Source: Malus domestica (taxonomy: Eukaryota > Streptophyta > Magnoliopsida > Rosales > Rosaceae). Taken from it: 64,000 nucleotides of DNA. The stretch spans positions 5,902,501 through 5,966,500 of the forward strand of contig NC_091675.1 of NCBI RefSeq assembly GCF_042453785.1, written 5' to 3'. Under the pieces are notes generated by a model, which saw only the letters and a list, made by a program, of their open reading frames with translations, did no database searches and had not been told where the DNA came from. Below, one piece after another: positions 11,694-39,765 of the stretch (position 1 is the first letter of the stretch; each line of letters opens with the position of its first letter). The position numbers were made by a program, and so were the translations under genes.

Positions 11694-12784
11694 CTTTAGA
11701 TAATGATTATCAAAGAGAATGAACGGCTGTGATTATGACGTTTGTATGATAAAATGATCACTACACAAAATTTGAGCACTGCGCACAATAAATTATATGT
11801 GCCCTTTAAGGCCAAAAAGCACCAACATATGTACCCATAGACCAATAGCAACAGTGCAACAACTATATTTGTATAATTGCCCTCTATAGGCATCACCATT
11901 GCTAAAAGGGCACAATAAACTGTTTGGTGCTCAAAGAGGCAAGCACAAATAAAGGCATTTGTGTGTCTATGTTCTGACAAACTTGTCAGATGACCTTCTC
12001 CATCCATGTTTGCACTATTTTTGTTATTGTGCCCAATAGGTTCTATTTAAAAAAAAATAGAAATGTAAAATTTTGAAATAAAACCAAAAATTTAAAATTT
12101 TCATAAAATCAAAGATGGCAATCTCGGCTGTAAAAAGCAATCCAATAGTAGAAATGGAATGTCTATAATGAAACTACACTCATAAAGAACATGTTCAAGA
12201 TAAAAGACCAACAAAATAATGAGATTATCCTATCAATGCATCCATGCATTCCTACATATAGCCACCCATAACTGATTTTACCCTTTTTCCCAGCTCGGTG
12301 GATTATGCAATCATCTTCCTAAAATCCAAACCAAAGGAAAAATGAAAAAGGGAAAGGATCACATATTTCCAGTGATGTTTAACTACCCAAACATCCAATC
12401 AACATTGAGAATTCATTAGCTTTACACACACTACTACAAAAGGGCCTTATAGTGTCAGTAAGTGGCGTCGGTTTAATATAATATAGTGGCAGATAAGACA
12501 GTTGCGACACTAACTGAAGATGACGTAGGATTTACTGTCGCTTATAAGCGTCATAAAATGTCTACGTCGCTTTTAAACCGACGTAAACATTTAATGTCGC
12601 TTATAACTGACATATATTTTAATAATTTTAAATACTAGCGTCGCTTTAAACAAAACAGTGTCGCTTTTAAGCGACATAAAGCATTGGTGTCGCTTTTAAG
12701 CGACACAAAGTATTGTTTTTAAATATTTTAAAGTCTGCGTCGGTTCTAAATGACATAGATTTTAGTTTTTTTTAAATATCTATG

Positions 12785-13507
12785 TCAAAATGATAGATTT
12801 ACTAACACTTAGAATTTATTTATACTTTCATTAAATATAACATAAGATTTTGTGGTATCCACTAGTGTAAATATTTTAAATTGAAGATCGAATTCATTCA
12901 TTGTATTCATATAGGGTCAAGGAGTGTAGCTACTAAAAATCATCTAAATCGGATTTAAAATAACCGTTAAATCGTGATTTTTCATTTATAACCGTCGAAA
13001 AGTTTTGTCCTGTTACTTAATCTCTAAATGTTTGTTTTTTGTCATTTTTGGCGTATGCGACCTGGAAGCATATATAAACAAGTTTGATGGTTGGATCATT
13101 GAAATTAGTTTCATAGAATGTGTATCTCATCAAAACAATAGATTTACTAACACTTATAATTTATTTATACTTTCAGTAAATATAATATAAGATTTTGTGG
13201 TATCCACTAGTGTAAATATTTTAAATTAAAGATCGAATTCATTCATTGTATTCATATAGGGTCAAAGAGTGTAGCTGTAAAAAATCATCAAAATCGGAGT
13301 TAAAATCACCGTTAAATCGTGATTTTTCCTTGATAACCGTTGAAAAGTTTTGTCTCGTTGCTTGATCTCTGAATGTTTGTTTTTTGCAATTTTGGAGTAT
13401 GCGATCTCGAAGCATATATAAACAAGTTTGACAGTTCGATAGTTGAAATTAGTTTCGAAGGATGCGTATCCCATCAAAACGATAGATTCACTAACACTTA
13501 GAGTTTA
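12785..13507 (+). repeat. 345-bp satellite array, left part (about 2.1 units)
   Basis: The marker CTAACACTTA starts at 12802, 13147 and 13491, giving a 344-345-bp period. Each unit also contains GTTAAATCGTGATTTTTC and GTATGCGATCTCGAAGC-like blocks. The array stops abruptly at 13507 in mid-unit. Confidence 0.9.
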
Positions 13508-15072
13508 CTAGAAAATAAGCCCGCGCTATACTGCGGGAAATCAGTGTACTAATCGTAATTGGATGAATAAGAAACATTTATCTAAATAAATTCAACATAA
13601 TAATGAATGACAAAGGGATATATAAGGTGAGTAGAGAGTGTGCACCACCAATTTGTTTCGGTTTGGGCCCTTACCATAAACACGCAAACCGAACCTTGTT
13701 TTTTCTATTTTCACTGATTTCTTTGTACTGGGTCCTGGGGCAGTATCGAAACATTTCACTATCGTTCCTTCATTCTTTTCATCGTTTCGAGCCTTAATCA
13801 GTTCCCTTAAATTTTTTTACCAAATCGCCTTCTAGAATTTGTTATTCGCTTCGATCAATCTCTTTCACCATTTTATTAACCCTGAATAACAAATTAAATA
13901 CAACATTAATATTTATGTATTTAGAAAGAAAAATGTGTTTAGCTTGTAGATCTTAAAATAACTGTAACTGTGTCAAAAAAATTTAAAACTCAAATATAGA
14001 AGCTGTGAGTTTTTTGGAAATAACTTAGGTTTGTTCGGAGAGCGTAGTTATTAACAGCACTTATTAATGTACTTTGGGAGGGATGAGATGGTTGACTCTT
14101 AGGAAAACCTAACGAAAACACCAACCAAGCAAAGTAACTAACGTCTGAAGAATGGTTTGGAAATTGAAAACGCAACAAAGAAAGAAAGCAATTGACAAAA
14201 AAAATATATAAAATGACTAACAACATTCGACTAAGAATTAGGAACAACTAGTTAAAGCAAAATCACAGATGACGCCAATGCACCTTTGAACAATAATAGA
14301 ATGGTTGAGACCAATTTAAAACCAACAAAAACAAAGAAACCAATGAACTTGTGAAGTATCAAAAGATTACAGAGATAACCAAGAATGAGAAACAAAGCAG
14401 GTAGCAAACGAATGACATAAGCTGATAAAACCAAACAATCGACTTAAACATGATAAATTTGCATTAACTCAAACGGAAAGCACAGGGAAACAATGTATAT
14501 TAGTTTAGGTGACATACCAAATCCTTGATTCAAATGCAATAGATGCGGATTCCTAGATAAAGGCAGCAAGAAGAGCAGATCACAACATTGCAATAAGACC
14601 TTGATCTAAACTACAACAAATCAGTGAGACTGAGAGTTAGAATTCGATGCGCAAACAAATGGATACAGGAATAGTAACACAATTTGCGACAGTGCAATGG
14701 ACTCTAACTGGGACAGTTCAATGGACTTAATGTACGACAAATTTATATTTAACGAAAGAAAAGCTGCTAACAACGGGAATGCATCTTCTGTCACCATATT
14801 AATTTAAAGGCCTAAAGTAAGGATGAGGTATCGCAGGCGGTTCTTAATTAGTACAGGGGTTAGAGTGTGAGAACGTTGGTTTTAGAAGGAATAGGCTAAA
14901 TAGAGTAAATAATGGTTTACTGTGGAGTACGTTTAGTGAAAATCAATGAGATTGTTCATTTTTGGAAGAGGATGGTTTTGAGTTAGAATAGAACATTTGG
15001 ACTGCATTTAACAACCAGCATTTATGGTTCTATGAAAATAAGTATAAACTAAGTTGGAATGACAACAGCAGA

Positions 15073-15704
15073 CAGCAAAAAAAAAATTGAAGGAATGCAG
15101 AACTAAGGATTGTCAAATGGTTCAACATTTAACAACCACCATTCATGGTTCTATAAAAATGGGTATATACTAAGTTGGAATCACTACAGCAAATAGCAAA
15201 AGAAAAACAGAGAATGCAGCATTTTCTCATATTTTCGAATCAATTATAAACCCTGAAATCGTTACGCCTAGACCTTTTATTCACACCTCAGTCGTTGTTG
15301 TATCCCTACATCTATGAATCCAATTTCATTCAAGAAACAATGCAGATGAGAAAATCGAAAAAGAAGTATGTCCCCATGATTAGTTTTCTCGTCTATTCTT
15401 CACAAACTAATCACATATCTAAAATCTAAGTACAAAAGCTTTGCAAAGGTAATAAAAAATGGTGTATAACTAATTAGGCTTTGAACATATAATCAGTGTG
15501 CAGAATTGTATACCTAAAGAAGGCAATGAAGCGTATTGTTCCTCCCAGAATCAGGGTTCCTGAAATTTCCAAAGAATGTAAATCCGTTAGGAAATCCGAG
15601 AAATTGGAGGACCAAATCTCATTAAATTTGAGTTAAATGAGTTAACGTACACGAATTAAATGAGAAAGTAAACAGATTTCAAATCTATGAAATGTAATGG
15701 TTGA
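15073..15704. repeat. ~630-bp direct repeat, copy 1
   Basis: Nearly identical to 19376-20007, 4.3 kb away in the same orientation. A 46-nt exon-like block with intact AG and GT borders (15514-15559, minus strand) is kept in both copies. A shorter 120-bp tandem duplication overlaps the left edge (about 15000-15180). Confidence 0.85.
15514..15559 (-). pseudogene. Exon-like 46-nt fragment, unrecognised
   Basis: The minus strand reads TTTCAG, then 46 bases, then GTATAC. In one phase it encodes TLILGGTIRFIAFF, which looks like a membrane segment. I do not recognise the gene. The same fragment with four base changes lies at 19815-19860 and keeps both splice borders. It may be a captured exon. Confidence 0.35.
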
Positions 15705-18700
15705 AATCCAACCAAACCTAATCCTTCAACCTATTTTCTCGGATACCCCATACTAAAGAGAATGCATGTAAAGTTTAGTTTATAAAATTGCATGCTGTTT
15801 TCTCTCTTTGTACCGTTTAACAATTCACCAGTAAGATCATGTAAAAAATACTTATATTAGGAAATCTAATGGCGAACAATGTGAAACTGAAGATGGTTAC
15901 ATCCTTGGTCTTCCCAAATTTTCCTTAGAACTATAATGTTGTTTCAAGTTTTAAAAATTGATCACTGCAAGCAACAGAGCAGATAGTATTAAGATCGAAA
16001 ATGCATTCCGGAAACTGTAAAAGTAAAAAAAACTGTGATGGTGGAACGGATTAAATTTGCAAAAGTGCAACAAACAAAGGGTAAATCTCATAAGGGTTTA
16101 ACTGACAACCAGTCATTTATACTTGATAATGTTCTGAATTATCAGCCAGATAAAGCTGTTAAAATGTGTTTTGGAATCAGTCGTCTGACAGCATGTTTAT
16201 CCACGCTGTTGGGATCAAAATCTTGGATGTCGGGGTCAAAATTTTGTGTCCGCCTAAGGATATTTGAGGCTAAAAACTTAACTCTACTCAGTTTAGCTTC
16301 TAAGTTATTTTATTTTTCAGTCTTCAGATTTCAACTAAATATTTAACATTCCATAGTGTAGCTTCAACTTAAACTTTACCGCGAGAGCCTGTATACTGGA
16401 TTTACTTCTTTAGCCCTTTGTATGCAATTTAAATTACATGACTCAAAATACAACCCAAATAGAACACAAATGGCCCATAGAAAAAAATGCGAAATATTTA
16501 CCAATCACTATTCACAGTTTCTTCTGTCACACTTTAGTTCAATCATACGTACCAGACCCCACCAAACCACATGCTAATTAAACTAATTAACAAAGTAAAA
16601 CCATCTTTAGTCTTTAATATCCAAAGCCCGAAAAATGTTGCCCTCCCTTTGCAAACCAAATACAAAGAGAATATAACACATTTTCTATCAAAATATTATA
16701 CAAACATGTACTGACTAAACCAAATTTCGAGAGGATTTAGCCGACGCTAGCCAAATGAATACACTTAGAACCATAATGTTGTTTGAATTTTAAAAAAGGA
16801 AAACTAATGAAAAGTCCAAAAAAACTTCTCTTTTAATGAAAAGTCATTTTTAAAGGTATAGTGAATTGTGTCAGCTAAAGGTAAAAAAAGTGGTTTTTCG
16901 TTCAAAATGAATAGTACCGGGAGTGTTTTGTTAAAACTCCCGTTTTAAAAAATGTTAACTGATTGAAAAACCACACCATTTAAAGAACCAGTGGAGATCA
17001 GAATAAGTATGAAATACTACAGAGGTAAATGAACAGCCATTAATATAATTTTTTTTTTCTCGGCATGGCAACAACAATCATAAAAAGAAAAGGAGAAATT
17101 CTATGGGATAAATTTAAAGTCTATTTGAAATATTCAATATATATTTGTTTGTCAAACTCTGATAAAACTTCACACTCATGCTTTCCAAAAAGAAAAGAAA
17201 ACGAAAAACTTAAATCATTGACAATTGCAAGCAATATAGCAGCTATTATTAAGATCCAAAACTAATTGTGGAAAGTATGGGGACCAAACACTATTAGAAG
17301 TTGGAAAGATATGCCGATGCAGCAGTTTGAGAACACAGTTTGGGAAACTTTGGGTAGGAAATATGCTCGCAAGGAAAACCGACAATGGGAGTATGACTCT
17401 CAAAGATGGTTTATGTTTAATTTACTAAATTACCATAATCGTTGTTGGTTCGTTTTCACTGATGGTCTACTTTGAATTCAAGTTTTTGTAAAGAAAATTG
17501 GTCTTTTAACATGCTCTTTTCTAAATTTTAAAAAGGATCGTAATTTTGTAAATAAATTCAATTCCCAAATTGAAATTGCAAAGAAAGTAAATCCGTTAGA
17601 TGCTCATGTCTTTCTTGGTACAGATACTCATATTGTGCTTAATTAGCATCACACATCATGATATTAAAGTTCTAATCATGTTAGACCTATGCCATGTAGC
17701 ATATGCATTCAACTCAATACCCTAACATTACAGCCAAAATTAATTGATATTATCAAGAAGTTGAGACTTTACCAAAGCAGCAAAGTAGCAGTTGCAAAAT
17801 TTAGTCAAAAGCTTTCACTTTGTTTTGATCTGCAAAATACCAAAAAGACATTTACGATCGAGGAAAGAAAACACATTTGATTAAAGAATGCACTTCAGCC
17901 ATTATCAAATTGTCAACCAAGCGAAATGTATAAAACTACACACATTTACACAGCCAAACTCTATACTTCTTATCAGCGAAAAAAAAACAACAATTTACCT
18001 AACAATTAACATAAAATTACATACTCAAATTGATTCGACAGTTTTTATAAATTCAAAAAATGAACAGACGTTTTTTCGAATATCTAACTCATTGTGTCAT
18101 CTGAATTCACTTGTATACATAAGCTACTAACGCAATCACTCTGCTACCACATGTGGTAAGCTATGAATAGTAGATCAAAGCGATTTTCTATCAAACAACT
18201 AAAGACCTAAATTATAACGGCTATAGGGTAACCGGCACTTAAAAGAATAAACCATGCCAAAAACACGGTATAAATGAACTAAATTACGAACTCGACAAAT
18301 AAAAAGCATAAACGTTAAACAATTTAAAAGAAAAGAAAACAGCCCTTACTTCGGCTCTTGTTTCCTTCCCCTTTTCTTTTCCCAGATACTTCCTAGTGGG
18401 AAATATAAACCTTTAATTACGTGAAATGTCAGCCAAAAAATTGACAGGATTAGAGCAAAATAAAGTAACTAAAAGGTCTAACTTATGTGGTTGAGCACTA
18501 TGGGTTAATAAATACCCATCTAACCACAAACCATTTTCCCCCATCCAAATTTTAATGTTAACCAAGAGATATAAGACAAAATCGCAATAGAGAAAATAGG
18601 TGAATTAGATCATCAAACGCTGTATCAATAACTGAGATTGAATAGAATGGAGTGTCATTGTTGTGCTCAACTTGGACACCAGTATATACATGCTTTGACA

Positions 18701-19375: not shown

Positions 19376-20007
19376 ACAGCAAAAAAAAATCAAGGAATGC
19401 AGAACTAAGGATTGTCAAATGGCTCAACATTTAACAACCACCATTCATGGTTCTCTAAAAATGGGTATATACTAAGTTGGAATCACTACAGCAAACAGCA
19501 AAAAAGAACAGAGAATGCAGCATTTTCTCGCATTTTCGAATCAATTCTAAACCTTGAAATCGTTACGCCTAGACCTTTTATTCACACCTCAGTCGTTGCT
19601 GTATCCCTACATCCATGAATCCAATTTCATTCAAGAAACCATGCAGCGGAGAAAATCGAAAAAGAAGTATGTCCCCATGATTAGTTTTCTCGTTTATTCT
19701 TCACAAACTAATCACATATTTAAATCTAAGTACAAAAGCTTTACAAAAGTAATAAAAAATTGGTGTACAATTAATTAGGCTTTGAACATGTAATCAGTGT
19801 GCAAAATTGTATACCTAAAGATGGCAATGAAGCGTATTCTTCCTCCCATAATCAGGGTTCCTGAAATTTCCAAAGAAAGTAAATCCGTTAGGAAATCAGA
19901 CAAATTGGAGGACCAAATCTCATTAAATTTGAGTTAATGAGCTAACGTACACCAATTAATGAGATAGTAAACAAATTTCAAATGTATGAAATGTAATGGT
20001 TGAAACA
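19376..20007. repeat. ~630-bp direct repeat, copy 2
   Basis: The partner of 15073-15704. The second exon-like fragment is at 19815-19860 and reads TLIMGGRIRFIAIF in the same phase. Confidence 0.85.
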
Positions 20008-20905: not shown

Positions 20906-21652
20906 AAAAGGTAAGTGTATTCAGTGTGTATAAAAAGTTACAGTAGGGCTGCATATACCAAAATCCAAACATCATCCTTTCTCTTTCTCTCTCTCAAACA
21001 GTTCCACTCAGTTTCCAACTCACTGAAATGCAAAGGAAAACTGAATCTACATGCAGTAGCTAAAGGTTCATTCATATTCATTTTTTACACCTTTGTTGAT
21101 GCACAAAACCGAAGGTCTTGGAACAACGTAAATCCGACCGTGAATCTGCAAGTAATGTAAATGACACAAGATGTATCGTGGTTCACCCCAAGGTTTAGGC
21201 TACGTTCACACTAATTGTATTGTATTTATCTGAGAAGTGAGGGAGAAAATGTGAGAGCTTTGCTCTAGATAGGAGAGGCTTCGGGTTTGTGAGGGTGAGG
21301 AGGCCCTTTTATAGAATAAGGGCTCCTCCTCTAATTACATATTTTCCCCTTCCTTAATTACATAATTACATTTAAGTCCCCCGAGTATTTATACAAGGTC
21401 TAAATACGAGACCCTAAACATGGTATAAACAGTAGTCCGCCAAGTCTTCAGTCAAGAGAGTCTGTTGGCTAGAGACTTGAAATTCAGTCCATGTGTGGGC
21501 CGAAGTAACTAGATGCTGTCTTGAACCGATGTTCGATATAAGTCAGTGCTCAATCTGAAATGACGCTCAACTAGAAGTAGCACACGCTGCGAGGCTGCTT
21601 GGCTCGTGGCTTATGTTGCCTTGGTTGACTCGGCTTGTGGCGTTTGAAGGTA

Positions 21653-21900
21653 AGGGAGTCCTTTTTATAGAATAAGGACTCGCTCCTCAATACATGAATG
21701 ATGGGTTAGAGTTGATGCTCTCTAATGATGGTGAGGGAGTCCCTTTTATAGAATAAGGGCTCGTTCCTCAATACATAAATGATGGGCTAGAGTTCATGTT
21801 CGCGGCGAGGCGGTTGCTCAGTAGGCGACGATGCTCTCTAATGATGGTGAGGGAGTCCCTTTTATAGAATAAAGGCTCGCTCCTCAATACATAAGTAATG
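21653..21900. repeat. Three copies of an LTR-derived block
   Basis: AGGGAGTCC followed by TTTTATAGAATAA recurs at 21653, 21734 and 21850. The same block occurs inside the LTRs as the short TATA-like region, so these look like internal LTR debris. Confidence 0.75.
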
Positions 21901-22174
21901 GGCCAAGTCCTCCAAGTATTTTTCATGAGGCCCAGTTGAGGCCCAATAAATGGTACATAATGTAGTCCCCCAAGTCTTCGGTCAATAGAGTTTGTTGGCT
22001 GGAGACTTCAAATTGAATCCATGTATGGGCCGAAGTGGTGGTTGTTCGGAGGTGGTATTTGTATACCCTGCACTGAAACTTTGTAGGTGAAGCTTTGCAA
22101 GTGAAGCTTTAAAGCTAGGGCTCTGTAAATGATGTTTTTGAAGCTAGAGCTCTATAAATGAAGCTTTTGAAGCT

Positions 22175-22465
22175 GATTGACATGAATGATGCTCATGAAT
22201 GTTTATGTTGATTGACATGAGTGATGCTCATGGATGTTGTCATGAGTGATGCTCATGAATGTTAACATGAGTGATGCTCATGAATGTTTATGTTGATTGA
22301 CATGAGTGATGCTCATGGATGTTGTCATGAGTGATGCTCATGAATGTTAACATGAGTGATGCTCATGAATGTTGACATGAATGATGGTCATGAATGTTTA
22401 TGTATGATTGTCATGAGTGATGCTCATGAATGTTTATGTATGAATGACATGAGTAATGCTCATGT
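22175..22465. repeat. ~25-bp minisatellite of small palindromes
   Basis: CATGAGTGATGCTCATG and close variants repeat about ten times. Each copy is an imperfect palindrome with a 6-bp CATGAG/CTCATG stem and 5-base loop. An 85-bp higher-order period is visible (TGTTGATTGA at 22206 and 22291). Confidence 0.9.
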
Positions 22466-22469
22466 ATAA

Positions 22470-22755
22470 TTTGGAGTATTGGGCGTACTTCTGATCACCT
22501 GGTTGGTGGCATAAAGGAGAGTACGAGTTGTACATTTCGTCACCTGGTTGGTGGTATGAATGGCTAGTTGCCAAATGATATTAGAGTACGGGCTGTACAT
22601 TTCATCACCTGGTTGGTGGTAAAAGCGGCAGGTTGCCGAATAATTTTGAAGTACTGAGCGTACTTTTGATCACCTGATTGGTGGTAATAGCGGCGGGTTG
22701 CCGAATAATTGTGGAGTACTGGGCGTACTTTTGATCACCTGGTTGGTGCTATTTC
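22470..22755. repeat. ~65-bp minisatellite
   Basis: Four to five diverged copies centred on ATCACCTGGTTGGTGG, with GGTTGCCGAATAATT between them. The last two copies are 65 bp apart (22669 and 22734). Confidence 0.85.
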
Positions 22756-23149
22756 GGGCTTATGGGCCTTCGCCCTCTACAACATGCCAGCCCATTTGTT
22801 TTGGGCTTTGCTGTTTTTTTTTTTTTTTTTAGTTACCCTCTGATGGGGTTTATACATATTACCCTCTGATGGGGTTTATACAGATGTCTCCGAAAGATAA
22901 TAAAAATAAATTACATCATTCTGGTGGGGTGTTTATTCCTTGCTTTTGCTTTTCTCTTTTCCACCGCACCTTTCTTTTGCTTTTTGTGTTTTCTCTGAAA
23001 TGACAGCTGCTTTGGATAGCCTTTCCGACATCACCCATTTGCTTTTCTCTGGCTTTCAAAAAATAGGAACATGCATCATTTAGTGGTGGACAAAAGCAAA
23101 AATATAATCATTTCCTTTCTCTTTTAGCTTTTGCTTTTGTTTCTGTTTC

Positions 23150-23840
23150 TCACTTTTCTCTTTTCTTTTTTATTTTCTCGATCTGCTCCTTGAGAGAAAA
23201 CTGAAGGCCAAAAACCAACTGATCCTTTTCCGATTCCAATGCGGCGACCTCATCGTCCTCTTCATCTAGATCAACCTCATCACTATGACCATCGTCACCT
23301 TTGGGTAGCAGCTGGCTCGGTTTTTCAACACTTGCAGCCATGTTTTTCTTGTCACTATTAACGAGCTCCTCTTCTGCCATTTAAGAATTAAAGAGGAGGA
23401 AAGTGACGAGGAGGTAGACCCACAGCAGATTATCCCTCCTGACCCAATGAGGACAGCAGCGACGAAATCGATAAGGACCAAGACATTTACCCGGCTCGAC
23501 GGTGCGTAGAGAACAGGGGAGGTGGAGGAGCTCAAAACAGAGCTCTTGTTATGGCGGAACTGTTTGGCCTCCGAGACCAACCGCTTCACGAAAGCCCATG
23601 GAAGCTGAAAATGACCGCGTTTTGCAAAAACCCAGAAAGCAAAAACTGGAAATGCAGATTGGGCTGAAGAAGACGATTACCCGGCTGAAAAATGAGGACC
23701 AAGACATCAATGAGGACAGCAGCGATGAAATCGATGAGGATGACGACGATTACTCCTCCCTCCCTCTCCTGACTTGCACCCACCCTTCCTTCACCAGGTT
23801 CGAGTATTGTGATGAAGGCGAGTCTGAACGCCTCCTCTAG
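23150..23840. pseudogene. Acidic ORF fragments inside the LARD, possibly captured host exon
   Basis: A 76-aa minus-strand ORF (23380-23150, starting MAEEELVNSDKK) and a plus-strand stretch (23596-23840) that reads an acidic tract (NEDSSDEIDEDDDDYSS) followed by LLTCTHPSFTRFEY. The block AATGAGGACAGCAGCGA occurs at about 23447 and again near 23709, so the region is internally duplicated. I do not recognise the parent gene. The plus-strand frame ends at TAG 23838. Confidence 0.35.
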
Positions 23841-24930
23841 AAACCGCCCATCAATGACCCCGTAATTACCAAAACTGCCACTCCTTCCTCCGATTACGGG
23901 ATCCTTCCTTGTGGAAATGAAGTGCGAAAGGTTCCTGCCAAGGGTTTCTAGTGATGATGGAGCTCAAGAGTTAGAGGTATGGGTTATTAGAGAGAGAAAG
24001 TAAGAGGAAGGGACGAGAGAAAGTAAGTGGGGGTTTTCTAGAAAAGCCCAAGAATGGAGGTTCTGGGTTTCTGCAAATTCACGGTGGAGGTGAAAAAAAT
24101 GAAAGAGAACCGACATAGCTTTTCGTGTCAATTCCCACACGGCACCAAATGTTGATACACAAAACCGGAGGTCTTGGAACAACGTAAATCCGACTGTGAA
24201 TCTGCAAGTAATGTAAATGACACAAGATGTATCGTGGTTCACCCCAAGGTTTGGGCTACGTCCACACTGATTGTATTGTATTTCTCTGAGAAGTGAGGGA
24301 GAGAGTGAAAGCTTTGCTCTAGATAGGAGAGGTTTCGGGTGTGTGAGGGTAAGGAGGCCCTTTTATAGAATAAGGGCTCATTCTCTAATTACATATTTGC
24401 CCCTTCCTTTATTACATAATTACATTTAAGTCCCCTGAGTATTTATACGAAGTCTAAATACGAGACCCTAAATATGGTATAAACAGTGACTCCTACCATA
24501 TGCTACTGCACCTTGATACTCGGAAGTCTCACGACCACTCAGTGACTTGGATTTTTCAAGTCTCCAAACGAGAAGTTTTCCTCACTCGGGAAATTAAGGG
24601 AGCACTACCTCAACCTACATGCTTCACTCACAAAGCTTCAACATACAAGTTTCAACAAAAGGAAAAATTTAAAGAACTTAGTGAAGAAGGTCTTGATGTA
24701 TTTAACACAATACGTTGAAATGAAGCAAAGTTTGTTTATTGATATCTCCGATAAGTTACAAATATGTACATATACATGAATCAAAATAAACAAACAAGAG
24801 GGAGCCTTCACAAAGGTTGCTCAGAAGAAGTCTCAGCAGTCAGCAGAGCCCCAGAAAGAGGAGGCACCAAAGGGTGATTATTCGGAGCCTCAATACTAGG
24901 CTGAACCCCGGAAGGAGGAGGCACCGAAGG

Positions 24931-25500: not shown

Positions 25501-25624
25501 AAATGAGGTGCAATAAATCTCTGAAGTAAGGGGAAAATTCATACAAGTAATAACTCTTTGAATGTACTTCTTGCACACAATTGGTGCCCTTATAAAAGAA
25601 AGGGCAACATGGCCGTTGGTTCAA

Positions 25625-26745: not shown

Positions 26746-27984
26746 TTGTTGTTAGGGAGACTCCTATATATGTCGACCTTCATCCTCAACGGACAGGCAG
26801 ACCTGCAAAAATGCTCAACCCTTCCTCATATCTAAAATGGCACTCCCAACGAAGCCTCTCAAAATACTCAGCTTTCTTCCCCCCCTAATAATACCTATGC
26901 AAACCAGCCACACCAGAGCAAGAGTATCTCATATCATCAGGGTCAAAAGCAAGAGTATCCCATATCATGCTTTTTCCCTGTCTTTTCCTTTGGCATTGTT
27001 CTTACCTGCAAGACAATGAGAAAGAGAGTCATCAGTCAGCACTTGGAATCAAACTTTCAGTCATGAATTGACTGCATGTAACCCATTGCCTGATTACTTA
27101 CCTGGCATTGCTCTCGAGTACTCATTTTCAACATCTTATGCTTCCAGGAAAGATACCACATCTGCCTGAGGAACAGATAGGGCAAGTGAGAAGGATACAA
27201 GGAAGCATGTGGAGACAAGCGTAACAGAACACGTGCCGATTCATCTATTACTTCATCAACAGCAAAAGTATCACATATCATCAAGGTCGAACGCACTCTT
27301 GATTTGATGAACTTGTTTTGACCCTCAAATTCTTGAGTCGACCTTATACTTTGGAGGATACCAGAAAACCCTCCAGCACAGTTCAAGAATAAGCATGTGG
27401 AAAGTTACTTCTTCAAAAGCAAAAGTATCTCATATCATCTCTTCTCCATTTGCTTCTCCTTATCTTTGTTGCTGTTTACGACACAATGAGAAGAAGAACA
27501 ATCAACCGGAAGCCGAAGTCGAACCTCCAATCCAGGTGGCTTGCTTGGAAGTCTGATTGTTTACCTTATATGTTACCTCTTTCGGCAAATCTCTTAGCTC
27601 GGCGACTTAGGGGACTCCTATTATAGGGTTTTGTATCGCACTTGACCAAGCCCGAAACTACAAGTAAGCTTCAAGTGAAATTGATACATTACCTTGTGCA
27701 TCTTCATCGGTTAAAGATACCACCCCTGGATAGAGGAAAAGTACTTCTAGAGAAGATGCCACATCTACGTATAAGACAGATAAGGCAAGTGAAAATGATA
27801 CCACATTTCAGTACTTAGAAGTTTCGTGATTACTCAATGGCTTGGATCTTGCAAGTCCCCAACCGAGGAGCTTCCCTCACTCGGGAACTTAGGGGAGCAC
27901 TGTTTGTACCATACTTGACCAATCCCGAAACTACTGAGCACCGGTCAACGTTATACTGTCAAGGACCCAGAAGAGTTTCCCTCC

Positions 27985-28098
27985 AACCAGGAGGCCAATC
28001 ACAGCGTGACACGTGTCGACATCAGAAGTCAATCATAGTGTGACACGTGTCAACGTCAGAAGCCAATCACAACACGACACGTGTCAATGTCAGAATGA
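27985..28098. repeat. Three ~35-bp repeats each carrying the palindrome GACACGTGTC
   Basis: CCAATCACAGCGTGACACGTGTCGA-type units (one copy AGTCAATCATAG) repeat three times just upstream of the LTR TATA-like box. CACGTG is the plant G-box core bound by bZIP and bHLH factors, so these may act as LTR promoter elements (inference). Confidence 0.75.
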
Positions 28099-28361
28099 AA
28101 CTAGAAACTCTCTTCTATAAATAGAGATCATTCTCTCACAATATTTCCTAATGTCATTTGTACTAAATCATTCACTAGTACTCACTAAAGGAGAGCTTGA
28201 ACCTATGTACTTGTGTAAACCCTTCACAATTAATGAGAACTCCTATACTCCGTGGACGTAGCCAATCTGGATAAACCATGTACATCTTGTGTTTGCTTCC
28301 CTGTCCCTATCCATTTACATATTTATCCACACTAGTGACCGAAGCAATCTAGCGAAGATCA

Positions 28362-28490
28362 CAAAAAAAGGTTGTACCAAGTGCACAAGTCTCCCGCTTT
28401 ACGCAGGGTCTGGGAGAGGTGAATGTCGGCTAGCCTTACCCCCATTTTATGGAGAGGCTGCTCCCAAGTCTCGAACCCGAGACCACAAAC
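28362..28490 (-). mobile_element. SINE-like copy, Au-family-like
   Basis: On the minus strand a Pol III B-box-like GGTTCGAGACT (about 28475) leads to CCCTGCGTAAAGCGGGAG and GTGCACTTGGTACAACC, ending in a run of T (28369-28363). This tail matches my memory of the widespread plant Au SINE. The A-box half is unclear. Confidence 0.6.
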
Positions 28491-28626
28491 TTAACATTTT
28501 CTGTTGTACCAAAGTCCTCACTGATTTTGTGCATCAACAACCTTAATTCACACAACCTGAGTTTCAAACCAACCTAAGCACATATTCAAACCATTATGCA
28601 ACAACAGCAACCAATGCAAACCATTA

Positions 28627-29609
<983 letters not shown>

Positions 29610-29916
29610 CTAAAACCAGCTACTTATCACCTCCAATATCGGATTCTGCAAAAGAACAAACCACATGCATAAGGATTTATACAGTTCTTTGCTTTACCTA
29701 AGGTTACTGGACCAGAAATAAAAAACGAAATCACAGTGCTTTACTTTGTAAGGTTTGATTTGTAGAGGACTGGAGGCTAGAGCTGGGTTTGGTTTTGGCT
29801 TGAGGCAGTGGGAGAGGAGTCGAAGGGGCAATAATTTGAAATTACAGTTCTAGAAATCAAAATATATTACGGAAAAATACAAATAATTTGTGAAGCAGAG
29901 CAGAAGTGGGATTTAC

Positions 29917-30209: not shown

Positions 30210-30706
30210 CTTTCATGAACCGCATGAAATCTAACCATGATTGCCTCGCTTTCATGAAGCGCATCAACAAATAAATTAATAATTCACGGTTCCGAATTTG
30301 AACATCTATTAATTTTCAAAGGGAAAAAGCCTAACCAGATCAATTTTGCTCCCTGGACAAAACACCCACAACCCACGTTTAAAAGGATAAAAAACCCTCC
30401 ACAAATCAGATACCAGAAATAAGATTTCTTAAAATACGAAAAAATTTGGGATCGAAACACAACAATATCGAAGAAAAATAGTGAGAATAAGACACGAATC
30501 AGAGAAAGAAGTGAGATTTAATTACCTCTTGAAGGCTAGAGAATTTGGGTGCAGGATAAGGGGGCGAGAAGATCGTGAAGCAAAGATCGAAAAGATGAGG
30601 AAGCAGGGATCGAAGGGATCACGAAGCAGAGATGGAAGAGATCGATGTGGACTGTAGGACGCATGATCGAAGTCGCCAACCCGTTGCAGAGCAGCTGAGA
30701 ATGTTA

Positions 30707-33130
30707 GCTTGTTTGGTATTGGATTTGAGTTCAAAGTTTTTAACTTAAAAACAATTTTTAAGTTTTAAGGTAAAAATACATGTTTGGTAGGCCCATTTTG
30801 CAAAACTGGACTTAAAAATTTTTAAAAACAGTTCATTATAATTTCAAAACAACAAAAGTTAGGTTTTAGTGTTTTTTTTTTCACGAGTTCAGTTCCTGTA
30901 CCGCGATGGAGGTCTAAGCTGTGCTGCGCAGACCATGATCTAGCGTTGCGCCTCACCAACAACGAACTACCAAATATAAAGACGAATAGGTAATCCCTTT
31001 TTTTGAGTTTCTGGGTCTTTGAGACTGCAATTCCTCAATCCAATTCGAAGAGACCCATTTCACCTTGCATATTTGTGACTCGATTTCGGATTTAATTTTC
31101 TGTAACTCTCTCTCTCTTGTTTTCTGTATTATCTGTTTGTGTTGAATTGCATGAATGTTTGATTGTTTGTATAATTGGTCAATTTTGTGTTTTTATTGGT
31201 GGTTTTGGAGGTCTGTTGCAGCTGGGTTTATTGGGTTTCTTTAGAATTAGGCAACTATTGGGAAAATTGAGGGAAAATGTTGCAAAATTTCTTTAGAATT
31301 AGCCACCTTCGGTTCGAGGTATGGAAATCTCGAACTTGGAATCTACTTGGAGTGATGGGTTTATCTGGAATTTACTTGGAGGCCCTGCAATTTTTTTTTT
31401 CTCTTTCAATTTTGTTAAAAAAACGTATTGATATGATTTTTCTTGGTTTTCTGGATAATCCCATATCGAGAATTGTTCTTCATGAACCAAATATAATCCA
31501 GCCATATAAGCTAACTCCACTATTTTCCATTCACTGAAGGGAAATGTTGTCTTGTGTGTCACGTGAATTTCTCCTAATCCGGTCAGCATTTCCCTTGCAT
31601 TCTCAAAGAATCCCCTGACCAAATGCTAATGAAACTTGAAAAATGCATGAATTTAGTCTAGAATTTGAGTCATAGGTTTACATTGTTGTGCTAGTGTTCT
31701 GCTTGCTATCGAAATTGAGTCATTCCAGTAGCTTTTCCACTGGTTTGTTTTGGGTGTTTCTTCCTTTTTTAAATTTTTTTGGGTGGTTGAAAACATAAGA
31801 TCAACCATAGTACTGTTAATATTCATTAAGATATTAACAGCTTGCTGATTGAAGCACCAAACTGCAGGTTTGTACTTTGAAACCCAAATTCAGAACTGTC
31901 ATAATTTTGTTTTCTTTTCTTTACCATTCTCTTGGATATCTGAATGAGTGGCCATGAGTTTTGGTTGTATTGACCAAAAAGTTTTTCAAAACTTTCCTCG
32001 TGCATTTATGTTCTGTGATCCAACCTTAGCGTCTTCTCTAATTTGGGGGTTCATTACCAATTCAAATTTTTTGGATTATGAGAATTTGTGGCATATCGTA
32101 CTGAGAATCCTTCTTTCACGAGTGTACTTCCCCTGAACTGCTACTGTTTTTTATTTCTATATCCCTTATTCATTTTTATTATGTTGCAGATTATAAAGAT
32201 GCCCACAGCTGTTATGGGGGAATGTAGGCTTTTTGGCCAGTTGCTTTAGTTTAGTTGGTGTATCTTCATGTCCTTAGCTTTTTGAATTGTAACCCCGCAC
32301 CTTCAAATCTGAGCAAAAAGCCGGGATGCAACTCTTCAAAGACATTAGTGAGTGCTAGCTAGGACCAACTTTTGCATCTTTTACCGTTCCCTTGGTTCAT
32401 TTATAATATGCTTCTGCGTATACGGTAGACTGAAATGTCTCACTCCATGATATTAACTCTTCATATTGTCTTGAATTACTTATGTGAAATTTAATGAATC
32501 CCTATATTTGAATGGCTAATAGTTTCTTTTTGGGAGCAGGTGTTTTGATTTACTTGTATAGCTTTGTAGTTTTGTGAGTGACATGAATTCTATTACACAT
32601 GTTTGGTATTTGACTCTACAAGTTCATGCATTCTGAATTATTCATTTTTGGAGGTTACTGTGCCAAACTTCTGCCAGCATGTTATTAGTTTGTCTTACGC
32701 AATATAAACTGACACAAACTTTTCGATATTCACAGTCAATGTGGCTTGATTACGTCAATAACAATTAGTCTCAAAGTTTATTGGTTTTCTAGAATATTTT
32801 AATGTAATATTTATTATCTAAGACTTGAAGTTTAATTTGATTATCGAGCATATATATGTTGTATTTGCACATGGATATCAAAATAGTATGTTTAAGGTTT
32901 AATTTCATATGTTTTGTATATCTTAAAACAAATACATAATTGAAAAAAAAAAAAAAACTTTTTTCAAGAGTTAAACCAAACAAGTTTTCAAATTTTTAGA
33001 TTCAAAAATAGTTTTTAAGTTCAATGCCAAACAAGTTTTTGAAACCTAAAAAAAACTGTTTCTAAGAGATGATCCTGAAAATTAGTTTTAACAACAATTC
33101 AAGTTTTTGAGTAGGATACCAAACAGGCCC
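30707..33130. mobile_element. PIF/Harbinger-like element, 2.4 kb, possible TSD TTA
   Basis: The left end GCTTGTTTGGTA and right end (reverse complement GGGCCTGTTTGGTA) are inverted, followed inward by related runs rich in TTTTTAACTTAAAAAC. TTA lies just outside both ends (30704-30706 and 33131-33133). No transposase was seen. A minus-strand 107-codon ORF inside (31622-31299) matches nothing I recognise. Confidence 0.45.
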
Positions 33131-33643
33131 TTAGATTTCTAGCGTTTTCGGAAGACCAAAGAATACACACACCTATGCTTTCCGCTCTGTATCTCTCCCT
33201 GTCCATCTATCTCTCTAAAATGGGAGAAAATCCCATAGATCCTGGCAGAGCACCTACCTAAATATCTCTCACACTCAATCCAAACCCGTAGCTCCTATCT
33301 CTCTCCAATTTGTCAGGCCCTGTGTCTCCCTCCTCTGTAGTCGCTCTGTCCCCCTCTCTCCGCTATCCACAGGCACACCCAGCTGTCTCCGAGTCAAAAA
33401 TAGGAGCGATCTTCTCTCTCCAATTTGTCAGCCGTGATGTCCCCCCTCTCTCTCGCTGAGTCAAAAGCTGAAATGCAGCGAACGGCTGAAGATAGGTCCT
33501 CAAGCCTGAGTGGCAATTTTGTAAATTAAGAGAAAGCTGGTTAAAAGCATCTGAGTGGCAATCTTGTAAATAAACTGAAATGTGGTTCAAAACACTGTTC
33601 ATGTGTACAGTGCAATTGAAAAGCCTTCTTTAGACTAAAGTAA

Positions 33644-34996
33644 TTTACACTTTCATTGAGTATAACATAAGATTTTGTGGTATCCACTTCTATAAATATT
33701 TTAAATTGACGATCAAATTAGTTCCTTGTATTCATATAGAATCAAGGAGTGTAAGTGTAAAAAATCATCAAAATCAGAGTTAAAATAGCCGTTAAATCGT
33801 GATTTTTCGTTTATAACCGTCGAAAAGTTTTGTCTCATTACTTGATCTCTGAATGTTTGTTTTTTGAGATTTTTGGCGTATGCGATCTCGAAGCATATAC
33901 AAATAAGTTTAACGGTTGGATCGTTGAAATTAGTTTCGTACAATGCGTATCCCATGAAAATAATAGATTCACTAACACTTAGAGTTTATTTATACTTTCA
34001 TTAAGTATAACATAAGAATTTGTGGTATTCACTAGTGTAAATATTTTAAATTGAAGATCGAGCTCATTCATTGTATTCATATAAGATCAAGGAGTGTAGC
34101 AATAAAAAATCATCAAAATCAAAGTTAAAATAACCGTTAAATCGTGATTTTTCTTTTATAACCGTCAAAAAGTTTTCTCTCCTTACATGATCTCTGAATG
34201 TTTGTTTTTTGCAATTTTTGGCGTATGCGATCTCGAAGCATATATAAACAAGTTTGACGGTTGGATCGTTAAAATTAGTTTCATAGAATGCGTATCCCAT
34301 GAAAATGATTGATTCACTAACACTTAAAGTTTATTTATACTTTCATTAAGTATAACATAAGAATTTGTAGTATCCACTAGTGTAAATATTTTAAATTGAA
34401 TATCGAGCTCATTCATTGTATTCATATAGGATCAAGGAGTGTAGCTATAAAAAATCATCAAAATCAGAGTTAAAATAACTGTTAAATCGTGATTTTTCGT
34501 TTATAACCATAAAAAAGTTTTGTCTCCTTACATGATCTCTGAATGTTTGTTTTTTGCAATTTTTGGCGTATGCGATCTCAAAACATATATAAACAAGTTT
34601 GACGATTGGATCGTTGAAATTAGTTTCGTAGAATGCGTATTCCATGAAAATGATAGATTCACTAACACTTAGAATTTATTTATACTTTCATTAAGTATAA
34701 CATAAGAATTTGTGGTATCCAATAGTGTAATATATTTTAAATTGAAGATCGAGCTCATTCATTGTATTTATATAAGGTTAAGGAGTGTAGCTGTAAAAAA
34801 TCATCAAAATCAGAGTTAAAATAACCGTTAAATCGTGATTTTTCATTTTATAACCGTCGAAAAGTTTTGTCTCGTTAATTTATCTTTGAATGTTTGTTTT
34901 TTGTGATTTTTTACTGATGCGATCTCGAAGCATATACAAACAAGTTTGACTGTTAGATCGTTGAAATTAATTTCGTAGAATTCGTATCCCATCAAG
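33644..34996 (+). repeat. 345-bp satellite array, right part (about 3.9 units)
   Basis: Same unit and same orientation as 12785-13507. CTAACACTTA starts at 33972, 34317 and 34662. The first unit begins in mid-repeat at 33644, exactly where the left part stops. Confidence 0.9.
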
Positions 34997-35556
34997 TTCA
35001 ATGGTGTGTGTACATATATATATTAAGTAGATTTAAATTTATTTATTTTGTACGTATAACACTTAAGAAATTGAATGGTATGTATATTTAAGCCAATCCA
35101 ATGGTCACCATTTTTTAAAATTTATTTTAATATATATAATTATTATAGTTTTTAGGGGTATAAAATTGTTAAATTAATATATATAATTATTATAGTATTT
35201 TAGGGTTATAAAATTATAAAATTAATATATATAAAATTATAGTATTTGAAATATTAGGCGGGAAATTTCTCGCTTGTTTTGCACGAGGACATGGATGGAG
35301 AAACTTAGTGTCGGTTTTAATTGACGCTAGTTTCATTAAAGCGACGCTATGTGAATTTCAAAAAGTGTGTCAGAAGTTGGCGTCGGTTTAAACCGACGCA
35401 AACTAAGTACCCATATTTAAACCCCTCTCTTTCCCATTTCATCCGTGCTTTCATTTCTCCCCTAATTTCAGACTTTCTTCTTTTGTTTCCCCATTTCATC
35501 TGTGCATCCCTTTCTTCCTCCTTTTTAGGTTTTCCTCTTCTCCTTCCCCATTTTCT

Positions 35557-36095
35557 ATGGATCGCCATTTTGAAGATCAACATTCTGAGGAACTCCACTT
35601 CGACGAGGAAGAGCTCGAAGGTGGTTCATTTTACATTATTATGATTATTAATTTTAGTTTATGTTTTGTATTCTAACTAGTTTTATGCTTAAATTGAAAA
35701 TTTATTTTTGTTTCTTGGTTTTTAATTGTTTTTTTCTATATTTATAAGGATCAACTCAACAGAGATACGGACCCTCAATTCCGAATTGGAAAGAATAGCC
35801 TTGTTCGTTTGATTCGTCTGGAAAATGCATTAGTTATAATTCTAGTGCGTTTTCGAAACATGTAGCGGCAGAGGTTAAAGATTACAAAAATATTTAGATG
35901 GTGGCATACTGGAATAAAGAAAAAACAATGGTAAACGCTCCATGATTTATTTTATTATACCTTGAAATTTGTCTAATAAATTCTTTTATTTTTTAGGAGA
36001 TTGCCGAAAAAAATAAGCATAATCGGCAGTTGAAAACTATGAACCATACAACCGGTTCAAAATCTTTTGCAAGAGTTTGGGAAGAATTTGTATGA
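35557..36095 (+). pseudogene. Remnant of En/Spm-type plant transposase gene
   Basis: Three exon-like pieces on the plus strand: 35557-35620 (MDRHFEDQHSEELHFDEEEL), a piece from 35749 that reaches a TAG after GPSIPNWKE, and 35997-36095. The last reads EIAEKNKHNRQLKTMNHTTG then SKSFARVWEEF and a stop. The NK.NR...HTTGSKSFAR pattern is characteristic of the plant transposase (Ptta/En/Spm) domain. The gene is degraded and lacks the rest of the protein. Confidence 0.75.
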
Positions 36096-36709
36096 GTTGT
36101 ACATTTTTAGGAATTGTAGTTAATTTTAAATTTAATATATAGTTGGTAGAAATTTTATTTTTAATATGAAGTTTGCTTAAAATTGTTTGTTTTTTCATTG
36201 ACATATGGTGGGATTTATTTTTATATAATAATTTTTAATTATTATTATTTAAAAACGGAAAATGATTTTTTTTATTATTAATATATTTGGTGTCGCTTAT
36301 GAACGACATCATAACGGTCAAAACTGATGGTAGTTTGGATATTTTATAATTAAATTGGTAATTAGCGTCGTTTTAAACCGACGTAATGTTGAAGTTTGCG
36401 TCGCTTTAAACCGACGTCAGTGTCAGTGTCGCTTTTAACCGACGCTGCGTACTGGCGGATTAAGCGTACAAATCAACATTGAAGCCCTTTCGTGACGCCA
36501 GCATTAGTGTCGCTATTCCAATCTAACATTACATTGTTTTATGTCGGATTTTTGCTAAATTTCCGACAGAAATTGGGTTTCTTGTCGGTTTTTGCTTCGC
36601 CACTGATAAGGTATATTGTAGTAGTGACATATCTGATAACAATAACAATTTCATTTTCTCCGACAAAAAGAGAGAACATTTTTCTATTGGTACAACTAAA
36701 TGTCCAATG

Positions 36710-36880
36710 TACCAAATGGGTTTGAATTGCTAATCCATACACTAGAATTCCATATGTCATCAATCACATTTTATTCCAACTAATTTAAGGGAATGAAAGC
36801 TAATCACTTTGCAAATTCCATATGAAACATACCAAATGGGTTTAAATTGCTAATCCATACACTAGAATCCAAACCCAATC
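36710..36880. repeat. Short direct repeat pair, 120 bp apart
   Basis: TACCAAATGGGTTT followed by AATTGCTAATCCATACACTA occurs at about 36710 and again near 36830. I cannot assign it to a family. Confidence 0.7.
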
Positions 36881-37495
36881 CAAATTCAATTGTGGTCCTC
36901 TGAACCCAAAATAACAACTATGAGGTGTAAGGCCAAGGTTAATATGGAATGTATGCATCCCCTAAAACCTACAATCAATTTTAATAAATATCAATGAAGT
37001 CAAAAGGTCGATAAAACATTTACCTTAATAAAAGAATTACGTTAGAATCCAGATCTTCCTTAATTTCTCTAATTGCTGCATTATTAATAATTGACGAGTG
37101 TTGCAATGAACCAGCGTACAACTGAATGTAACGGCGACAAAGTTGACAAAGATCTCGAATGCGGTCCCAAGAGGATCGGCAACTGATTCAAGAAAACAAG
37201 TGTGAAGTCAGAACCAACATGGGAAATTCATAAAAGTACATCGATTTGTAAAATACATCCAAAAGCATATGGTGAGAAGTTTCACCAAATATTTGAAAAG
37301 TAAATACAAACTTCAACTCAATTCTAGTATTTTTATTTATAAAATTTAAAGGAATATTGTAAAAATAAGAAGCTGACAAAAAAGCCTTGAATACCAGGCC
37401 GTAAACAGGCATACAAGCATAGACCATAAAAGAGTATATAGATACACTTTTATCTGTCAAGTGTAGTGTATATATATGTGTTACCACATTTTCTT

Positions 37496-38155
37496 CTGCT
37501 GCAGGGCAGCTTGAGCAGCATCACGCCACCACAAATACAGACCCTCTGATAGGGGCACCACATGTCTCAGATGGGAAACATCAACATAAGTCTTGTATCT
37601 TGAAACAACTTCTAATAGTTTTATATCCAATCATAATATTGCCCTGAAAAATCTAGTAGAAATGAGTTGTAGCACTCCAGCTGCATACCAAGAAAGTAGA
37701 AAAGGAACAAATTTTATGGGTTGTGGAAAAGAGAAAATTAACACCTCAACTTTCCTCAGAGAGCTGAGAGAAGCAATTTTACTCGATACTTGTATATTAG
37801 AGAGGGAGAAGAGAAGTAGAGATATTAGAAGAAAACATTTAGAGAGGGAGAAGAGAAGTAGATAGCAATAGGGGGATACTAAAATGTGAAAGAGATCCTC
37901 CAGCGAAATCTTATTGCATTTTCCTAACTCCTACCATGAATTAAAGTTATAATATGAATATTTGTTTGTCAATGGCAGAACAGGAGAGAGGATGAATCAA
38001 AATAATACAGGGAATAACATTGTGCACCTCAGTTACTGTCAAAGAAACATCAATTAGCACGAGGGAAGCCTTCTCAAACGGAACCTCTAGATCATTTCCT
38101 TCTTGATTTCCAATGCGGTGATATTTTAAAGGGACATTTTGGATGCGGTCCTTAG
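37496..38155 (-). pseudogene. Captured VPS13-like (SHRUBBY-type) gene fragment, broken
   Basis: Minus strand, two exon remnants in order: about 38155-38027 reads DRIQNVPLKYHRIGNQEGND and then EVPFEKASLVLIDVSLTVTE before a GTGCAC border; 37625-37500 reads KLLEVVSRYKTYVDVSHLR and LYLWWRDAAQAALQQKKM. This pattern matches the N-terminal chorein-side region of plant VPS13 lipid-transfer proteins, which are several thousand residues long. A 2-nt insertion upstream of KLLEVV (in DWI-xx-KLLE) breaks the frame. It sits in the right arm of the outer CACTA element. The family assignment is by memory. Confidence 0.65.
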
Positions 38156-38167
38156 CTATCAATATTC

Positions 38168-38880
38168 TTTGATTGGAACCTTGTTAGTTTTTAGTTTTTT
38201 ATTGAGGTCCCTGACATTAATGTAATAATGTAAGTTACTATATTTTTCAAATTAAAAATTAAAAATTAAAAATTGAAAATTGTAATTGTTTATATTAATG
38301 AGATTTTAAATAAAACCCATAATTTATGGGATTAAAAATAATAAAATATAAATTATACTCTCTATTATATTGTGTGTGTGTGTGTACATATATGTACATT
38401 AGCCAAAATTAACAAAAAAAGTTATTGTACCAAAACATGGATACATTCTCAAATCAACGAAAAAGAATGTACCCATATAAGTTTAAACATGGATTAAAAA
38501 ATTTGAAAGGATTTTATATTAAAAAAAGGGTACATTTTACATATAACAAATTTTTGATATATTTGAGAATGGGTACATTTAAGATTAAAAAAATGTAAAA
38601 ATTATATGAATGGGTACATTTAAGATTAAAAAATTGAGAATCTTTTTATATATAAAAAAAAACTAATAGGTACAAACTTAATTTAATTTAATTTTTTTAT
38701 TATTTTGGAAATGTTTGAATTGAAAATTAATTAGAAGTTTAATAGAGGTGTGAGTATTAAACCCTAAATTAATTACTAATTTTTATATTAAAAAATTATA
38801 TAATAAACATGTAAATTCATTATCACATTAATGCTAGGGACTTGAATCAAAATTTGAGAACTAATAAGGTCTTAGTCAAT
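38168..38880. mobile_element. MITE, ~710 bp, with ~50-bp terminal inverted repeats
   Basis: The left end (TTGATTGGAACCTTGTTAG...GTCCCTGACATTAATGT) and the reverse complement of the right end (TTGACTAAGACCTTATTAG...GTCCCTAGCATTAATGT) match. The interior is AT-rich with GGGTACATTTAAGATTAAAAA repeats and a short (GT)n. It encodes nothing. Confidence 0.7.
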
Positions 38881-39764
38881 GAACAGTAAGAACTAGGGAC
38901 CGGATACTAATTTTTCCTATTTTAAAACTCCATTTCGTCCAGAGCTAGATACGAACAAAACGCGCACGTCCATAATTGTAAAATCCTTATTACATTTAAA
39001 ATTGAAAGAACAAACCAAAAACTCAATGGCTGGCTCCCACTGGTTTCGTAGATTCAAAATCAATTTAAAACTCAATTATAGTTAAGTGCTTCCTAAAAAC
39101 TCATATAGCCCTAAATTAATGCAAACATGCAACTACTTCAGATTAACTTAATTAGACAATTATTTTGAAAACTCATCAATCACAAAACTGGACGTTTTTA
39201 TTTTGAAAAATCACTTACACTGGATGATAGCCCACGATGAGAGGATCATTTTTACCTCTTCAGTCGAGGTCCAATTCCGGAAGACTTGGTCAAAAATTGG
39301 CCAGAAAATCCGTGGTAAGAATCGTTTCTTAGATTTGAAATTGAGGAAATTCTGAAGGCATGATTTGACGGTCGTTGGTGATCGGTGAACAGCGGCGCTG
39401 TTGCGCCAAAGAGAAGAGGGAGAGAGGATGTGGGAGGGAGGAAGATGGCTGAGAACAAGGAGAGTTTATTTTTTGGGAAACTGAGAACAAGGAGAGTTTA
39501 AGAGTGAGAGAAAGCAAATAAAGGAGAGGCGGAGTAATTGAGGATTGAGGAGGGAGGGAGGGAGAGTGAGTGAGGCGTGTAGTAAAGAGCACAAATACAC
39601 TCTCCTGTTTTTCTTTTTCGATGTGTCTTTTTGTTCAGAGGGCACATTTGAGTTAGTTTTGTGCTCAATGACATTTAAAAAGCACAAATATGTTTTTGTG
39701 TTGAATGAAAATGTAAAGAGCACAAATCAATTGTGTTCTTTTCTTAGCCCTTTTTTTTTGTAGT
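38881..39764. other. Right arm of the outer CACTA element, no gene seen
   Basis: The only recognisable structure is the subterminal cluster of AGCACAAAT/GGGCACAT motifs at 39586-39740. A minus-strand leader-like ORF (39458-39252, about 68 codons, Ser/Leu/Pro-rich) matches no family I know. Confidence 0.45.
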
Positions 39765-39765
39765 G

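Follow-up and report, generated by a model that had tools for sequence, protein, structure and literature searches.

A 28-kb stretch of the apple (Malus domestica) genome is, we are confident, a nested transposon stack that occupies a single intergenic site; the patatin-like genes on its two sides are tandem copies, both on the minus strand. The stack (11759-39765, Table 1) lies in the window C15:5902501-5966500, by which we mean the whole stretch of 64,000 nucleotides that was analysed, and comprises seven mobile elements of several kinds nested in or abutting one another. Nested transposons are common in plants. For every insertion event at this locus an uninterrupted counterpart was located in the same genome of 651,096,769 bases in 19 contigs (on C8, in L041, in intact satellite units, in L048 and in L084). 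Since an uninterrupted target exists elsewhere in the genome for each insertion, most of the insertion order can be read with confidence. All comparisons were made within this one genome, and copy numbers from genome searches are lower bounds throughout. An earlier note on this DNA had described a transposon stack between two sister genes; its core interpretation is supported and largely right.

The outermost layer is a CACTA element of ∼ 3.8 kb (once its insert is subtracted), which has both CACTA ends and a 3-bp target duplication. Its left end CACTACACAAAA begins at 11759 and its right end TTTTTTTTTGTAGTG finishes at 39765. Other copies were defined as every listed place with both ends (400-base queries) on the same strand within 9 kb, and all seven of them have matching 3-bp flanks (gtt, tga, aaa, cgt, ttt, gtt and tct), where the chance expectation is 1/64 with equal base use. 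Counted on both strands, the two 300-bp ends of the outer element contain 5 + 4 copies of GTGC[TC]C, the ends of the inner element (see below) 0 + 0, and 35.7 kb of flank 16. The earlier note had proposed a search for the empty outer site. A 370-base query in which the two flanks are joined through a single GAT (junction at base 159) aligns with C8:8445764-8445996 at 73% over query bases 83-298, spanning the junction; among the other listed matches most end near the junction and one extends to base 176. C8 and C15 are partner chromosomes in apple. Collinear blocks on C8, in the same order and 71-90% identical, lie on both sides (seven on the left, 10213-11755; two on the right, 39804-43567), and the C8 site is therefore credited beyond a repeat match alone. 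We take this locus, on the basis of these alignments, as the unoccupied site of the outer CACTA. Two length differences lie near the site: C8 has ∼ 2.3 kb that the window lacks, and the window has ∼ 3.4 kb (39908-43271) beyond what C8 has. The latter stretch corresponds to ∼ 80 bp in collinear C8; either a further insertion next to the stack or a loss from C8 may account for it.

Inside the outer element sits a second, satellite-bearing CACTA of ∼ 4.1 kb, whose left end CACTACTACAAAAGGG begins at 12429 and whose right end TATATTGTAGTAGTG finishes at 36626, with ACA on both sides (12426-12428 and 36627-36629). Its empty site is found in the outer copy on C7 (L041), which runs uninterrupted over the 12428/36627 junction with a single ACA. 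Subterminal repeats are present at both ends: the inner ends, 358 and 377 bp long, contain 11 + 7 copies of G[TC]CG[CG]TT (both strands), against 0 + 0 in the outer ends and 6 in the 35.7-kb flank. Among the ends, each pair has its own subterminal motif, as the earlier note had stated. To sample the inner family, 20 stretches holding 18 elements were fetched, chosen from the listed matches mostly because both ends were present. Both ends were found in 14 of the 18, and the 3-bp flanks match in 13 of these 14, again against an expected 1/64. The two CACTA pairs of the earlier note, 11759/39765 with GAT and 12429/36626 with ACA, are thus confirmed as dispersed families with matching flanks. The note had named two results that would overturn it, ends drawn from different CACTA families and an empty site that occurs in no relative; neither was obtained, because left and right ends co-occur elsewhere with matching duplications and the empty outer site exists on C8.

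No transposase was found among the stack's own open reading frames (ORFs) of ≥ 60 amino acids (aa). Transposase_21 pieces lie between inner-family ends in two long relatives (flanks atg/atg and cat/cat), together with DUF4218 in L033 and with DUF4216 in L036. Because these pieces correspond to tnp2, the inner family is regarded as En/Spm-like. The satellite has a 345-bp monomer, gave at least 153 matches clustered on many contigs, and varies from none to ∼ 7 units among the fetched inner-family elements. One transposase-bearing relative on C10 (L034:1917-2894) holds 2.8 satellite units in the opposite orientation. As described in the excerpted text of PMC8978399, Jozin of Chenopodium resembles the inner CACTA in its CACTA ends, its subterminal repeats and an internal satellite array in several copies. 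The monomer of Jozin is 171 bp, however, and its array comprises 32.5 units, against up to ∼ 7 in the elements read here. Unlike in that account of Jozin, the array is also carried here by copies of just 2-5 kb and has served as the target of a Helitron-type element.

This last element accounts for the split satellite that the earlier note had recognized, the two parts of which lie on the same strand on either side of a 20-kb insertion. The insertion itself is real, but it has to be redescribed as a gene-carrying, Helitron-type element. At its left edge (minus strand) a hairpin and CTAG are followed by host T, and at its right edge TTACTTTAG is preceded by host A. Its target, within the satellite, is thus the step from A to T; there is no target duplication, and the satellite reads TTTA/TTTA across the insertion, the same as in intact units. 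Three sisters with both ends, each of 10.4-10.5 kb, were found (C15:19127805-19138186, which is L048; C16:39078602-39088958; and C10:40940442-40950949). The 5′ edge reads GTAA (plus strand) in all 24 copies, namely the window, the three sisters and 20/20 further listed copies (L049-L068, which represent 19 sites because L049 and L052 share their flank). Host T follows GTAA in the window, the sisters and 19 of the 20 further copies, with C in L068. A precedes CTAG in five of the six 3′ ends seen; CTAG has been lost in the C16 sister. The element carries a 1-kb glutamate dehydrogenase segment that is 88-89% identical to C14, and 0.6 kb of which occurs at two further places (C13 and C10, 94-95%). 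All three sisters hold this segment (97-98% identical), so that its capture predates the spread of these copies.

The earlier note had listed a 7.4-kb pair of long terminal repeats (LTRs) among the contents of the stack. A 7.4-kb unit (21094-28539) with ACCTT on both sides does exist, and ACCTT occurs once in sister L048, which is the empty site; the comparison covers 9.6 of the 10.4 kb of this sister, relative to which the window has two long additional stretches. The unit is not one pair, however, but two fused LTR elements, E1 and E2, joined head to head with a single shared ACCTT duplication. The single pair is ruled out by the 338-bp LTRs of E1 and by two copies elsewhere that end there, and a 4.4-kb LTR was dropped after comparison with LTR copies elsewhere. 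The two E1 copies, in L083 and L084, have the same end points as the E1 of the window, with flanks actct/actct in L084 and inexact aactc/agctc in L083. Paired LTRs of the form TG...CA with a 5-bp duplication are seen in L084; the E1 of the window has ACCTT on its left side only, and gag/pol was not found in it (ORFs of ≥ 60 aa). The first 415 bases of E2 occur at at least 39 places elsewhere with 96-98% identity. Because E2 copies elsewhere continue upstream of 24488 (10/10 fetched stretches), the 5′ part of E2 is missing in the window. The short interspersed nuclear element (SINE) in the E2 LTR has a flanking duplication, an empty site and other copies. E1 has 338-bp LTRs, a 5-bp duplication (in L084) and no gag/pol found in the window copy in common with non-autonomous LTR elements such as terminal-repeat retrotransposons in miniature or large retrotransposon derivatives (TRIM/LARD). 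Unlike these, it is joined to the 3′ portion of a second element, and one duplication serves both.

We put at about even the chance that the 7.4-kb unit arose in two steps, with separate insertions of E2 and of E1 into one and the same ACCTT, followed by a deletion that took the 5′ part of E2 and the intervening ACCTT. The sequence upstream of 24488, present in every E2 copy fetched and missing here, is consistent with such an origin, but two insertions at one pentamer are required, as is a deletion ending at, or ≤ 2 bases from, the end of E1, and the single ACCTT of the sister fits one insertion equally well. One integration of chimeric DNA, in which an old complete E1 and the 3′ part of a young E2 were linked head to head, is conceivable, although we consider it rather unlikely. 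If true, it would involve a single ACCTT and entry through two LTR 3′ ends, would represent the transduction of an older neighbour by an LTR element and would account for the greater apparent age of E1 compared with the surrounding Helitron-type copy.

The earlier note overlooked a 2.4-kb element flanked by TTA (30707-33130). This element is absent from the Helitron-type sister L048, which reads through with two extra T. Its inverted ends are GCTTGTTTGGTAT against GGGCCTGTTTGGTAT, and copies exist elsewhere, one over bases 1-2019 of 2424 (97%) and another over 1-1788 plus 1784-2336 (96%). TTA or TAA adjoins all 14 fetched ends (five left, nine right); 12 of these are independent, since among the right ends there are two pairs with a common flank. 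In the two copies for which both ends were read, the flanks agree (TTA/TTA on C1, TAA/TAA on C17). A TTA/TAA duplication with inverted ends is the PIF/Harbinger pattern, and the 2.4-kb element shows both the TWA duplication and the inverted ends. Part of its BMT5-like fragment recurs at two C10 loci with 94-95% identity. A second gene-like stretch (window 31833-32741) is 88% identical to C4:28736040-28736944. The TTA/TAA duplication, short inverted ends, internal gene fragments and further copies are shared with gene-fragment-carrying Pack-type terminal inverted repeat elements; compared with these, the family of the 2.4-kb element is assigned by duplication and end sequence alone.

The nesting gives the order of events, and the sequence shows the steps. 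The ∼ 3.8-kb outer CACTA inserted at GAT, and the ∼ 4.1-kb satellite-bearing CACTA, whose end family includes tnp2-bearing relatives, then inserted into it at ACA. The Helitron-type element, already with its glutamate dehydrogenase segment, next entered the satellite between A and T without a duplication. The fused LTR unit (at ACCTT) and the PIF/Harbinger-like element (at TTA) followed, in either order, into the Helitron-type element, and the SINE inserted into the E2 LTR before or after E2 arrived at the locus. Judging by family resemblance, the CACTA elements may have moved by cut and paste with a transposase provided in trans; the Helitron-type element would have used a rolling-circle route, and the others the routes usual for their kinds. 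The earlier note had given the same succession of outer, inner, 20-kb insertion and LTR unit, which nesting and the counterparts bear out, and had placed the SINE after the LTR unit; the empty site in L084 does not show that the SINE followed the arrival of the unit. It had also dated the stack by matching target duplications. Duplications show insertion but give no date, and the order comes from nesting.

Divergence from sister copies gives upper bounds, not ages. Substitutions amount to 147/2941 (5.0%) for the outer CACTA against one copy (L041), to 3.8-6.3% for the inner CACTA against nine loci, a range that overlaps with that of the outer element, and to 214/9307 (2.3%) between the Helitron-type element and a single sister (C15, L048). 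The LTR pair of E1 differs at 20/336 positions (6.0%), ∼ 2.6 times the Helitron-type divergence between window and C15 sister. The LTR at 21094 is 94% identical to its partner and also to several LTRs elsewhere, but slightly closer to the partner (20 differences) than to any of the four LTRs in L083 and L084 (24-30). The LTR pairs of L083 and L084 differ by 6/338 and 18/338.

The rolling-circle assignment of the 20-kb insertion draws on the A and T target without duplication and on a 3′ end of the form CTRR preceded, at a distance of 10-15 nt, by a hairpin. Here the hairpin is a predicted one that stops 12 nt short of the 3′ end, and 6/200 shuffles fold equally well. Canonical Helitrons begin with TC (excerpted text of PMC13286980). 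The 5′ end of the present family begins with TT, reading TTACTTTAG in most copies (window 33625-33643), and a TC start is ruled out by the TT in the copies seen. Because of this TT we use the label Helitron-type, not canonical Helitron. RepHel was absent from the four of eight ORFs of ≥ 110 aa in sister L048 that were checked, and no genome-wide search was made. It is improbable that the 20-kb insertion is filler or some other DNA transposon and not a rolling-circle element: the start with TT and the failure to find RepHel in its ORFs of ≥ 60 aa would agree with this, but it has constant ends in many copies, the A and T target without duplication, CTAG with a hairpin 12 nt from the 3′ end, and a captured gene segment that retains introns. 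With Xuan-Feng, wheat Helitron1, as described in the excerpt of PMC13286980, the Helitron-type element shares the lack of a duplication, the CTAG 3′ end, the hairpin 12 nt from the end and its non-autonomous nature, and its target matches that stated for Helitron1 in the excerpt of PMC5148889. Unlike Xuan-Feng in the former account, it has 5′ TT, not TC, in the copies seen and carries gene DNA.

Several observations weigh against the nested stack as we describe it. The C8 site is single, but its triplet is diverged from GAT; no patatin match was found in the 9.1 kb of C8 that was examined; and the sequence that borders the outer element on the left is a dispersed repeat in its own right. Among the inner-family elements, the flanks of L021 mismatch (tat/ata, one of 14 pairs), one end alone was found in 4 of the 18 fetched, and CACTA is changed at the left end in L023, L024 and L026. 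The Helitron-type element has TT in place of the canonical 5′ TC, and RepHel is absent from the 113 stack ORFs of ≥ 60 aa. The absence of the LTR unit and of the 2.4-kb element in the C16 and C10 sisters is deduced from length only. Finally, the LTR divergence of E1 exceeds the Helitron sister divergence (p ∼ 2e-4, 20/334 used), which is the wrong way round under one clock. Either LTRs evolve faster or E1 was already old on arrival with E2. An arbitrary patchwork (e.g. a misassembly) with ends that match by chance or come from different families is very improbable and largely refuted, for although the terminal CACTA motif is short and the flanks disagree in one of 14 inner copies, complete ends are found together, with matching duplications, in 7/7 outer and 13/14 inner copies, and each insertion has its uninterrupted counterpart.

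The two patatin-like genes that border the nested stack are 73% identical, and on this basis the patatin duplication likely preceded the outer CACTA. Pfam gave no name to the three patatin-region ORFs tried; PDB sequences named both of the two searched. Beside the left gene, window 454-3895 has long open frames that resemble a copia-type polyprotein, as judged by eye only. The left flank of the outer element (window 11615-11755) is a short repeat with many ∼ 72-83% matches ending near GAT, probably a small inverted-repeat element. A Pfam scan of the 113 stack ORFs gave 23 families, of which two were kept (E < 1e-11); the other 21 (E 0.0014-0.049) were taken for chance. Rfam and tRNA scans of the window gave no matches, and nothing on this stack was found in the titles and abstract openings of the literature searched.

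Table 1. Coordinates of the features described (window positions; E, expectation value).
Feature	Position	Strand	Basis or remarks
Left target duplication GAT	11756-11758		right copy GAT 39766-39768
Outer CACTA, left part	11759-12428	+	ends, dispersed copies; sister L041 continuous across 12428/36627
Inner CACTA, left part	12429-13507	+	GTCGCTTTTAAGCGAC-type subterminal repeats, 2.1 satellite units
345-bp satellite in inner CACTA	12787-13507 and 33644-34995	+	split in two, same strand
Helitron-type rolling-circle element	13508-33643	-	20,136 bp with inserts; hairpin and CTAG at 13508, TTACTTTAG at 33643
Direct repeat in Helitron-type element	15072-15706 and 19376-20005		93.7%; also in sister L048
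LTR element E1	21094-24485	-	338-bp LTRs 21094-21431 and 24150-24485; left duplication ACCTT 21089-21093
LTR element E2, 5′ part missing	24488-28539	+	ends CATCAACA, then ACCTT 28540-28544
SINE in E2 LTR	28366-28483	-	CACAAA both sides; empty in L084; 94% copy in L025
Captured glutamate dehydrogenase segment, exons and introns	28626-29625	-	donor-like gene C12:538218-539217 (94%)
PIF/Harbinger-like non-autonomous element	30707-33130		ends GCTTGTTTGGTAT / ATACCAAACAGGCCC; TTA 30704-30706 and 33131-33133
BMT5-like fragment in 2.4-kb element	31305-31625	-	E 1.9e-12
Inner CACTA, right part	33644-36626	+	3.9 satellite units; ends GTAGTAGTG, then ACA 36627-36629
Outer CACTA, right part, ends GTAGTG	36630-39765	+	ends, sister copies
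Patatin-like gene, left copy	7234-9257	-	ORF 7908-8288 matches patatin 1oxw, E 3.5e-10
Patatin-like gene, right copy	44100-46130	-	ORF 44777-45148 matches patatin 1oxw, E 1e-11

The resolved locus exemplifies, with unusual completeness, something that is ordinary in plants. Less ordinary are three of its parts: a Helitron-type family that carries gene DNA and has an unusual 5′ end, a CACTA family with an internal satellite, and an LTR fusion that is so far unexplained. A full set of uninterrupted counterparts, one per layer and in one genome, is in our judgement strong and seldom complete evidence, and it makes the locus a clean test bed in which the order derived from nesting can be compared with divergence. 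A scan for TC...CTRR might miss a Helitron-type family with 5′-TT ends such as this one. The locus also documents two separate captures of gene fragments inside one stack and a CACTA family that moves a 345-bp satellite around the genome.

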